Source: Planctomycetaceae bacterium | GTDB lineage: Bacteria > Planctomycetota > Planctomycetia > Pirellulales > Pirellulaceae | DNA: 50,275 nt | Reading direction: 5' to 3' | NCBI GenBank assembly: GCA_002724245.1 | Contig: PBOG01000058.1 | Span: forward strand, 1 to 50,275 | Part shown: piece after piece, positions 6,639 to 9,278 of the stretch | Numbering within the stretch: the first letter of the stretch is position 1 | Layout: each line of letters opens with the position of its first letter | Translations under genes and position numbers: made by a program | The notes under the pieces: generated by a model | Told to the model about the DNA's origin: nothing | The model's database searches: none | Seen by the model: only the letters and a program-made list of their open reading frames with translations

Positions 6639-6699
6639 GGTTGTGGATTGTTCAAGCCGAGGTTGCCTGTCGCACGGCAGGAAGTGGAGAATTTCTACC

Positions 6700-8127
6700 A
6701 TGGCGAATCGAGACAGACGCGATTCGCCGATCTGGCCTGAGTGTCACCCGGCAGACCTTTCCAGACGCCGGCTCTTGCAAGCTGGATCCGTCATGTGGGG
6801 GCTTTCGCTGTCGCAGTCTTTGCGGTTGCAGACGTTGGCGGCTGCCGCCCAGCCGCAGGTTCCCGGATCGGGTCAGGCGAAATCGTGCATTGTGCTGTTC
6901 TGTTGGGGCGGCATGAGTCACCTCGAGAGCTTTGACCCCAAACCCGAGGCGCCCGCGGAAACACGCGGTGAGTTCGAGACGATCGCTACGGCCACTCCCG
7001 GCCTGCGAATGAGTGAGCACTTGCCGAATACAGCGAGGCGCAGTGAACATCTGGCGATTGTCCGGTCGGTCCACCATCTCAATACGGGCCATGGTAAAGG
7101 CATGTACTGGAATTTGACGGGACATCCGCCACCCCAGCCCGCCTCGCCGGTCAATCTGCCGCCTTCACGCAACGACTGGCCCTCTTTGGGCGCCATGGTA
7201 TCGCAGTTCCGTCAGGCGCCTCCTGGCTTTCCCGCGGCGATTCAACTGCCTTACGAAGTGACGAACGAGCATAGTTTACTGGCGGGTCAGCTCGGTGGCT
7301 GGTTGGGCAGACAGGCTGATCCGATGATTGCCAGGCCACCTTGCGGAACACCGTTTCGGGGAAATAAATACGACGCCGGCAGTGTCCCGCCCTGGGAATT
7401 TCCCACCCAGTCGGATGAACGAGGGATTCAGAACCGACACCGTTTACTCCAGCAACTCGAACGCCCGTTTGATCGCTCGATTGCGGCCGAATCTTACAAC
7501 TTCTACCGGCAGCAGGCGTTCGACCTGTTGGTCAGCCCTGAGGTCCGCCGAGCCTTTGATTTGCGGCATGAACCGGAATCGATCCACCACGCCTATGGTG
7601 ATCACCTGTGCGGTCAAAGCGTGTTAATGGCACGCCGTCTGATCGAGGCAGGAGTCCCCATCGTGACGGTGATGTGTGCGTTTGACAACCTCAGCGACCC
7701 CCGTGCCGAACATTGGGATACGCACTCCAATAATTTCAACCGGCTCAAGCACACCATGTTGCCGCTCTTCGATCGCGTTTTTCCGGCGCTCTTGGATGAT
7801 TTGGAATCGCGTGGCCAGCTTGACGAGACACTGGTAGTGGTGATTGGGGACTTTGGGCGCACACCCAAGATCAATGGGGAAGTCGGCAGAGATCACCATC
7901 CCTACTGCTACTCGGTTGTTTTTGCCGGTGGTGGAATTCGCGGGGGTCAGGTGTACGGAGCTTCTGATGCGATTGGCGCTTATCCCGCGCGGTTGCCGTG
8001 TGCGCCGCACGATCTACATGCGACCGTGTTTCACGCCCTGGGCATTCCGCTGTTGTCAGAACTCCAGGACCAGTTTGATCGGCCTCGGTACCTCTGCGAC
8101 GCGGGGCAGCCCCTGCCCTTGTTTTAG
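6700..8127 (+). CDS. DUF1501 protein with Tat leader, second in tandem
   Basis: A 475-residue DUF1501 protein of a different subfamily from its upstream neighbour, and more like the one at 45910-47361. The ATG at 6700 is preceded by a purine-rich site (GGAAGTGGAGA); 6643 would need an uncharged leader. The Tat motif is SRRRLLQAGSVMWGL. Landmarks are LFCWGGMSHLESFDPKP, AIVRSVHHL, LMARRLIEAGVPIVTV, HWDTHSNNFNRLKHTMLP, ETLVVVIGDFGRTPKIN and GRDHHPYCYS. It lies 61 bp after the preceding DUF1501 stop, suggesting one transcript. Its TAG stop (8125-8127) overlaps the TAA stop of the convergent redoxin gene (8124-8126). Confidence 0.9.
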   Translation: MANRDRRDSPIWPECHPADLSRRRLLQAGSVMWGLSLSQSLRLQTLAAAAQPQVPGSGQAKSCIVLFCWGGMSHLESFDPKPEAPAETRGEFETIATATPGLRMSEHLPNTARRSEHLAIVRSVHHLNTGHGKGMYWNLTGHPPPQPASPVNLPPSRNDWPSLGAMVSQFRQAPPGFPAAIQLPYEVTNEHSLLAGQLGGWLGRQADPMIARPPCGTPFRGNKYDAGSVPPWEFPTQSDERGIQNRHRLLQQLERPFDRSIAAESYNFYRQQAFDLLVSPEVRRAFDLRHEPESIHHAYGDHLCGQSVLMARRLIEAGVPIVTVMCAFDNLSDPRAEHWDTHSNNFNRLKHTMLPLFDRVFPALLDDLESRGQLDETLVVVIGDFGRTPKINGEVGRDHHPYCYSVVFAGGGIRGGQVYGASDAIGAYPARLPCAPHDLHATVFHALGIPLLSELQDQFDRPRYLCDAGQPLPLF

Positions 8128-8945
8128 TCGACCGACTCTGCCAGCGTTGTGGTACTTGATAGGGCTGAAATAGATAGCGATCGATTCGGTTTGAATGGAT
8201 CGTCGATGTGTGTGGGGGGTAAATGGTTACCGCGTTGCACAACCCGGGTCTTGCGTAGTGCCAATTGAATTGCTTGTTCGAGCGATTTGATGATCTGTTT
8301 TGGGTTTTCATGGTTATAGCGGGCCTGGCGGTCAGACCAGATGACTTTTTGATCTCGGCCGATGACGTACAGCAGAGGGACCATCACTCCCGCGTTGGGA
8401 GCTCCCAGTGACTCGATCATCGCATTGGATGCACCGTAACCGCTGGTCCAGCCGATATCGTATTGGTCGATTAACTCCTGGACTTTTTCCCGCGGGTCGT
8501 TGCTCAAGCTCAGGAATGTCACGCCGCGCGTTTTGTACTTGCGGTGTAGCCGCACCAGACCTGGCGCGCTCAACTTGACGCGAGGTCACCAGTCGCCCCA
8601 CAAATCGACTACGACGACCTGTCCCCGAAGACTCTCCCAATTCGTATGTGATCCATTCAGCCAGCCCGCGGCTTCCAAGGGTGGCAGTACGTCACCGGGA
8701 TTGAGTTGATGTTCCACCCGCGGCCTGGTGGGGAGCGATGCGAAGGGAGAGATTTCCGAAATGCGGTATCCCAGCGAGTGCATGATCCCCACACCGAGTG
8801 CCAGGCCCAGCAAGAACCCGATGAGGCCGGTCGCCGCCCAGATCGGCACGGAAGTTCCTTTGGGTGCAACCATGCGAATGGACAATCCGATTACCAGCAG
8901 ACAAAGCCCAACTCCGGCGACCATCAGGTAGGGGGCAAAGTTCAT
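8124..8945 (-). CDS. Membrane-anchored TlpA-like redoxin, candidate selenoprotein (TGA at 8586-8588)
   Basis: Read from ATG 8945 through an in-frame TGA at codon 120, this gives a 273-residue protein. Residues 4-24 and 33-57 are hydrophobic segments, probably a membrane hairpin. From about residue 83 a TlpA/AhpC-type thioredoxin fold follows: GDVLPPLEAAGW, WESLRGQVVVVDLWGDW, then the TGA, then PRVKLSAPGLVRLHRKY and GVTFLSLSND, a cis-Pro region GVMVPLLYVIGRDQKVIWSD, and a C-terminal helix. The TGA occupies the place of the first catalytic Cys in the usual DxWxxWCxxC signature, so selenocysteine insertion is the leading reading. The second CxxC cysteine is Val, giving U-P-R-V. Neither ORF half is a complete fold. 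Alternatives are a nonsense mutation of TGC/TGT or a sequencing error. No selA/B/C/D gene is in the window. Confidence 0.7.
8547..8572 (-). promoter_or_regulatory. Candidate bacterial SECIS stem-loop after the in-frame TGA
   Basis: On the transcribed strand, 18 nt after the TGA, a stem CGCGCC/GGUGCG (8563-8568 with 8551-8556, one G-U pair) closes a six-base apical loop AGGUCU (8557-8562). Two further pairs (A-U, G-C) extend the base past a bulged G. The loop starts 24 nt after the last base of the TGA. As I recall it, the E. coli fdhF SECIS has the same AGGUCU loop on a similarly short stem, 6 nt closer. The hairpin overlaps the codons for SAPGLVR, so part of the pairing could follow from protein sequence alone. 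Confidence 0.5.
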
Positions 8946-9278
8946 ACAGGTCAACTCACAGTCGTCGAGGCGTCGAGTTCGTCATCGTTCTGGTTCAGCT
9001 TAGTTCAAATGCCAGAACCAGGAGAGTCTTGATCATATTGAAGTGTTGAGTATTGGTCGACTGTTTACGGCTTGTTTCTCAGAAGTGTTCCTGTCCGTTC
9101 TGCCGTGGGCCAGGTCGCAGCGTGAGACGATCGAGACCGGTATCGCGAAGGCAGGCACAGTGTTATTCGCAGCGGTATTTTCATTCATAGGGTGAGAAAC
9201 AGGGAGGATTTGCGACACCCATCGTTGGCACTTGGGATGCCTGAAAACATGTTTTCGAGGAGTTGCCTCTGATCGATG
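8946..9278. other. Intergenic stretch upstream of the redoxin gene
   Basis: There is no convincing gene in these 333 bp; the short frames here lack codon bias or recognisable motifs. It holds the redoxin gene's 5' region and the 3' end of the hydrolase gene, both on the minus strand. The only structure seen is an inverted repeat GTTCTGG (8987-8993)/CCAGAAC (9012-9018) with an 18-nt loop, of unknown meaning. Confidence 0.4.

Follow-up and report, generated by a model that had tools for sequence, protein, structure and literature searches.

A stop codon seems to break a gene in a Planctomycetaceae genome, yet the gene is almost certainly intact and the stop most plausibly stands for selenocysteine (Sec). 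The gene lies on a 50,275-nucleotide stretch of DNA, contig PBOG01000058.1, which is referred to as the window; its genome is designated G000. Very probably the gene encodes a selenoprotein, a membrane-held redoxin in which SelB and a Sec-tRNA with anticodon UCA would decode codon 120, an in-frame UGA, as Sec under the direction of a downstream hairpin, and which likely works by a one-selenol cycle. As judged from sequence, what is new is a clade with a predicted two-helix anchor, in which the genus of the window lacks the partner cysteine of the active site.

A redoxin gene interrupted by a single TGA

Read on the minus strand, the frame opens with an ATG at 8945, is interrupted solely by a TGA at 8588-8586 and closes with a TAA at 8126-8124. 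An earlier note on this DNA had described two minus-strand open reading frames in the same frame, split by a single TGA, and our coordinates agree: 8586-8954 (with the ATG at 8945) and 8124-8573 form one frame with the TGA between them, and translation gives no internal stop other than codon 120. Annotation by the standard code would break the gene in two at this codon. The features are as follows.

8124..8945, minus strand: gene for a membrane-anchored, TlpA/ResA-like selenoredoxin, 273 aa when read through the TGA (open reading frames, translation, PF00578, same TGA codon in the orthologue)
8760..8936, minus strand: pair of predicted helices at the N-terminus, residues 4-26 and 35-62, regarded as membrane-spanning (AlphaFold2 model; membrane insertion and topology predicted from sequence)
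8256..8693, minus strand: thioredoxin-fold redoxin domain, about residues 85-230 (Pfam, AlphaFold2, Foldseek, VIA-align)
8586..8588, minus strand: TGA, codon 120, predicted Sec where the first catalytic Cys would stand (codon alignment of homologues)
8577..8579, minus strand: codon 123, GTC (Val), at the position of the second motif Cys (homologue alignment, codon numbering)
8551..8568, minus strand: SECIS-like hairpin CGCGCCA-GGUC-UGGUGCG, 7 bp, -10.0 kcal/mol (published bSECIS model, stem scan)

A DUF1501 gene at 6643-8127 on the plus strand converges on the selenoprotein gene, and the two overlap by four bases (8124-8127).

The product matches PF00578 (AhpC-TSA) with an E-value of 7.6e-13 and 48.9 bits, above the 26-bit cut-off. 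Domain boundaries and fold class were taken from an AlphaFold2 model of the window protein, with a mean pLDDT of 81.9; ten-residue blocks within residues 81-230 range from 88 to 98, except for 73 in 181-190. Structure alignment A3 comprised 74 hand-picked sequences, largely out of a list of 121. The best PDB matches returned by Foldseek are ResA and DsbE-like thiol-disulfide oxidoreductases (4nmu, E-value 1.1e-10). By VIA-align the Z-score is 17.9 for the DsbE-like 3gl3, about 17.6-17.7 for the 1-Cys peroxiredoxin AhpE and 16.9 for the ResA-like 4nmu; because AhpE falls between the other two, the fold by itself cannot tell a peroxiredoxin from a ResA/DsbE-like protein. The AhpC-TSA/redoxin Pfam match and the thioredoxin fold are those of a TlpA/ResA-like oxidoreductase, although the active site, UPRV, departs from the CxxC or UxxC spacing of that class. 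Together, the model and PF00578 confirm that the joined frames make a complete thioredoxin-like domain behind two N-terminal helices, as had been proposed. These helices would hold the product in the membrane. Basic residues lie between them in all four members of the clade described below, which, by the positive-inside rule used to orient the two-helix anchor, points to a redoxin domain outside the cytoplasm, most likely exposed on the periplasmic side.

The active site and its missing partner cysteine

The earlier note had suggested aligning homologues at the interrupted codon. The active-site codon of the 167 homologous hits found in fetched loci, a count that includes duplicates, is TGC in 93, TGT in 45, TGA in 27, AGC in one and TAT in one, and is therefore Cys or TGA in 165 of them; once duplicates are removed, 13 distinct TGA genes and 128 distinct Cys genes remain. 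With TGC or TGT in this column in most homologues, the TGA does sit at the first catalytic Cys. The gene thus shows what is looked for in a bacterial selenoprotein, a UGA within the frame at a column where a redox Cys is conserved.

Three residues further on, Cys occurs in 139 of the 141 distinct homologues. The exceptions are the window protein (UPRV) and its orthologue in a sister species of the same genus, genome G001 (UPRT); of all the homologues compared, only these two lack the partner Cys, and both have TGA. The earlier note was right to place the TGA at the first Cys and made no mention of the absence of the second CxxC Cys, replaced by Val123. Since the motif is UPRV rather than UxxC, the mechanism is likely to differ. 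Loss of the partner could also be a sign of relaxed function.

It is unlikely that Sec serves here in an ordinary two-residue TlpA reductase whose partner is a cysteine elsewhere in the protein. The one candidate, Cys15 in the first predicted helix, occurs in both the UPRV and the UPRT species, and the clade's two UxxC members have no Cys in their first helix, a distribution that would fit such a role. Cys15, however, falls within a predicted transmembrane helix and is the only Cys of the window protein, and the extra Cys of the G001 protein (AWCDQ) is Ser in the window protein. We prefer a one-selenol cycle, in which Sec120 would be the lone redox nucleophile of the domain, with position 123 occupied by Val in the window and Thr in the sister species. 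Sec120 would reduce a disulfide or a peroxide, passing into a mixed selenenylsulfide or a selenenic acid. Given a lone selenol whose partner Cys is gone, we infer that Sec120 would be regenerated by an outside thiol or a thioredoxin-like partner, not by an internal cysteine.

We propose tentatively, as a history that may well be wrong, that a lone Sec replaced the CxxC pair: Cys would have given way to Sec and the resolving Cys been lost afterwards, turning a dithiol reductase into a periplasmic, membrane-anchored one-selenol enzyme. If the one-selenol reading is true, the protein might act as a glutathione-peroxidase-like selenoperoxidase, to name one possibility, or as a mixed-selenenylsulfide reductase fed by an outside thiol. 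The two TGA genes without a partner Cys provide a testable case in which a selenol may free an enzyme from its resolving cysteine.

Conservation of the TGA and selection on the gene

A search of 98 relatives returned the G001 orthologue, which encodes a protein 74% identical to that of the window and has TGA at the same codon. Its neighbourhood resembles that of the window gene, with a hydrolase gene upstream and convergent DUF1501-like genes downstream, as judged by eye from open reading frames, with Pfam for the window genes. Beyond this pair, 11 distinct genes have TGA at the active-site codon, and TGA genes were found in records of Planctomycetaceae, Pirellulaceae, Pirellulales, Planctomycetales and Planctomycetota. 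By the NG86 method, comparison of the window gene with the G001 orthologue gives dN 0.12 and dS 1.86 for codons 1-119, and dN 0.19 and dS 0.92 for codons 121-232. A dN far below dS past the TGA implies that the downstream half is under purifying selection as protein.

These results weigh against a recent pseudogene, created by a nonsense mutation to TGA and decaying in the part that follows. The second catalytic Cys is gone as well (UPRV), which could resemble the loss of an active site. Against this, in the sister species the codon is also TGA and is followed by an intact frame under purifying selection, the same TGA recurs in the 11 other genes, and the frame of the window gene has no further internal stop, all of which makes a pseudogene highly improbable. 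The earlier note had argued both that a chance nonsense mutation would rarely strike this codon and that the downstream half is under selection; the recurrence of the TGA and the absence of decay support it on each point.

A second TlpA/ResA-like domain of the window genome has TGA at the same codon (L205, G000:C24:41842-42201:-; frame L208:46-2409:-). This paralogue sits on another contig than the window gene, keeps the partner Cys in its active site (DFWGDWUPPC) and belongs to an open frame of 788 codons that, by eye, resembles HEAT-type repeats in its C-terminal part. Its orthologue in the same-genus genome G002 (L206) has TGA too. G002, the third genome of the genus and 82% complete, has SelB, SelA and a 70-bit tRNA-Sec; no close copy of the window gene was found in it, the best match having an E-value of 8.4e-8. 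Elsewhere, one planctomycete contig has two TlpA-like domains about 1.1 kb apart (L127:4021 and L127:5117), one with TGA and the other with TGC.

A clade with a predicted two-helix anchor

An N-terminus resembling two helices is common to the window protein (L001) and the proteins of genomes G001 (L002), G081 (L005) and G003 (L020); the modelled structure is that of the window protein, and the anchors of the other three were judged by eye from the alignment. All four members found have TGA. In a tree of 72 of the 121 non-redundant domains (the 70 best-scoring and the remaining Sec rows, with 49 dropped), computed with the active-site residue masked, they form one branch with an SH-aLRT of 95, in which L020, a long row, is flagged as uncertainly placed. 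In the rest of the family Sec and Cys alternate, with seven changes, at least two of them forced, on a tree built from few columns in which 33 of 69 inner branches are open. Searches of the relatives (98 genomes), the family (241), the family of G081 (2) and one contig scan found no two-helix members beyond those of G000, G001, G003 and G081. Sample scans of the order (396) and the phylum (392), which overlap with the other scans, returned the same four at E-values of 1e-105 or better, with the next match at 1.9e-39 or worse. This adds a planctomycete clade of membrane-anchored redoxins, with TGA in all four found, to a family in which Cys and Sec alternate. Three UxxC members, L013, L007 and L147, have by eye an N-terminal signal and a lipobox-like Cys and no two-helix anchor; Sec redoxins seem to occur in two anchoring styles.

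Selenocysteine machinery

The search for selA, selB, selC and selD that the earlier note had advised recovered all four in the window genome, which thus has the full Sec machinery. The tRNA-Sec lies at C139:90145-90240 and is called tRNA-SeC, anticodon tca, by ARAGORN; it scores 70 bits with a model that also scores ordinary tRNAs up to about 59 bits and has matches in 14 of 14 control genomes. SelB (C55:9999-11894) scores 366.8 bits against a cut-off of 242.25, SelA (C55:12088-13440) 560.9 bits and SelD (C89:28294-29220) 350.8 bits, the last with an in-frame TGA of its own (motif CAGUAGK).

SelB is above the cut-off in all six genomes with TGA in the fetched best locus (G000, G001, G003, G006, G051 and G081), as against 55 of the 98 relatives overall. 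A further 20 genomes gave SelB, at an E-value of 1e-60 or better, in four of eight with TGA genes versus one of 12 with Cys at the fetched locus; these 12 controls come from no more than one family and so are not independent. SelB was not found in the other four of the eight, G141 (82% complete), G668 (85% complete), G904 and G905, of which G668 and G905 have an identical active-site stretch and may be one genome.

The SECIS-like hairpin

The bSECIS model, as given in the Fig. 2 legend of PMC13188914, within the part of that paper available, has a loop of 3-9 nt with G in its first two positions and a stem of 4-16 bp, 16-37 nt after the UGA, with a minimum free energy of -7.5 or lower. The window gene fits this model, and so does the G001 orthologue. 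The hairpin that the earlier note had pointed out after the TGA is thus present, at 8568-8551, with a 7-bp stem that starts 17 nt and a loop, GGUC, 24 nt after the UGA, and would direct insertion of Sec. A single change separates the stem of the G001 orthologue from that of the window, G.U to A-U, which keeps the pairing.

Across the family, 9 of 13 Sec genes fit the model, compared with 21 among the 128 Cys genes (Fisher's test, p 1.2e-4). In a position-free test, the longest uninterrupted stem of Sec genes exceeds that of Cys genes in length (p 5e-7), and hairpins of Sec genes are more stable (p 9e-4); these tests, position-free and published-model alike, treat the genes as unrelated. A fixed-position test (stem of at least 4 bp, 3-nt loop at 30 nt) gives 7 of 13 Sec versus 1 of 128 Cys genes at a position picked after the Sec genes had been viewed, and for this reason we place weight on the position-free test and the published model. 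No fitting hairpin was found in 4 of the 13 Sec genes, including L020 of the window's own clade. Compared with synonymous shuffles, the window hairpin is not exceptional (z -0.41; 35% of 60 shuffles equally stable). Of the fourfold sites within it, 5 of 6 are identical; the remaining compared codons give 39 of 93, a count obtained by subtraction, and the difference is too weak to stand alone. Rfam returned only a chance-level match, on the opposite strand.

Could the UGA be read without Sec, by suppression with Trp or Cys, or could regulated termination leave a short membrane peptide with a function of its own? In Sec genes, readthrough of the UGA is in competition with termination, and nothing direct speaks for such a reading. 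It is hard to credit in a genome with a dedicated tRNA-Sec(UCA), SelA, SelB and SelD, at a UGA that is followed by a SECIS-like hairpin and aligned with Cys, not Trp, in homologues. That TGC or TGT was misread as TGA in sequencing or assembly has a vanishingly small chance of being the explanation: the window assembly is fragmented (287 contigs), but an independently assembled relative with a 74% identical protein has the same TGA, and TGA alternates with TGC and TGT at this codon across the family. The predicted insertion of Sec at codon 120 is about as certain as sequence allows.

Comparison with known systems

The closest known systems are the TlpA/ResA-type oxidoreductases (PF00578/PF08534; PDB 4nmu, 1st9 and 3gl3), with which the window protein shares the thioredoxin fold, Trp116 and Trp119 before the nucleophile, and a conserved Pro190, which we take to be the cis-Pro. 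It differs from them in its two N-terminal helices and in having Sec (predicted) and Val in place of the first and the second Cys. The 1-Cys peroxiredoxin AhpE (PDB 1xvw) likewise has a single nucleophile and a similar fold (VIA-align rmsd 2.3 over 151 residues). Peroxiredoxins have Thr or Ser three residues before the peroxidatic Cys; the window protein, unlike AhpE and other 1-Cys peroxiredoxins, has Gly117 there (DLWGDWU), and membership of that group was set aside.

No NCBIfam model is above its cut-off for the window protein. NF041054 (ResA-like WAxxUGC motif-containing protein, WAxxUGC_long) describes a ResA-like protein with Sec in its motif, as in the window protein, which scores 14.5 bits against its cut-off of 300 and was not assigned to it. 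TsoY (NF047643), for which the available part of PMC13188914 uses 'UxxV', its one occurrence there, is not among the five NCBIfam matches of the window protein (E-value up to 0.1).

Related selenoproteins have been reported. A thiol-disulfide isomerase-like selenoprotein (cd02966) appears in the Sargasso Sea survey (PMC1088965) and Prx-like thiol:disulfide oxidoreductases in PMC1794560, and PMC9312934 has a family list similar to that of PMC13188914, as far as the accessible portions of these papers go. Selenoproteins reported from planctomycete isolates P1 and P2 (PMC4807772, in part) may overlap the window gene; the word 'planctomyc' does not occur in the available part of PMC13188914. The TlpA selenoproteins of algae, where the family is mostly Sec-containing (PMC7539508, by its accessible text), belong to the TlpA family like the window protein but are eukaryotic, with a hemerythrin domain reported; they were compared by description. 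A search of the literature, with most subscription journals outside its reach, found no published TlpA-like selenoprotein without the second Cys.

The earlier note had offered the gene as a candidate new selenoprotein. That it is a selenoprotein is supported by the conservation of the TGA, the machinery and the hairpin; that it is a new kind is not, since PMC13188914, in its available part, already lists Sec-containing TlpA-like, Prx-like and redoxin families. These are a 'thiol-disulfide isomerase-like protein' (cd02966, UxxC), a 'UGC-containing TlpA', a 'Redoxin family protein' (PF08534, UxxC) and a 'Prx-like thiol:disulfide oxidoreductase' (PF00578, UxxC/UxxU). In all four, Sec takes the place of the first catalytic Cys in a fold of this broad type, as is predicted for the window protein; as listed there, their motifs are UxxC, UxxU or UGC, whereas the window gene has UPRV and its sister UPRT.
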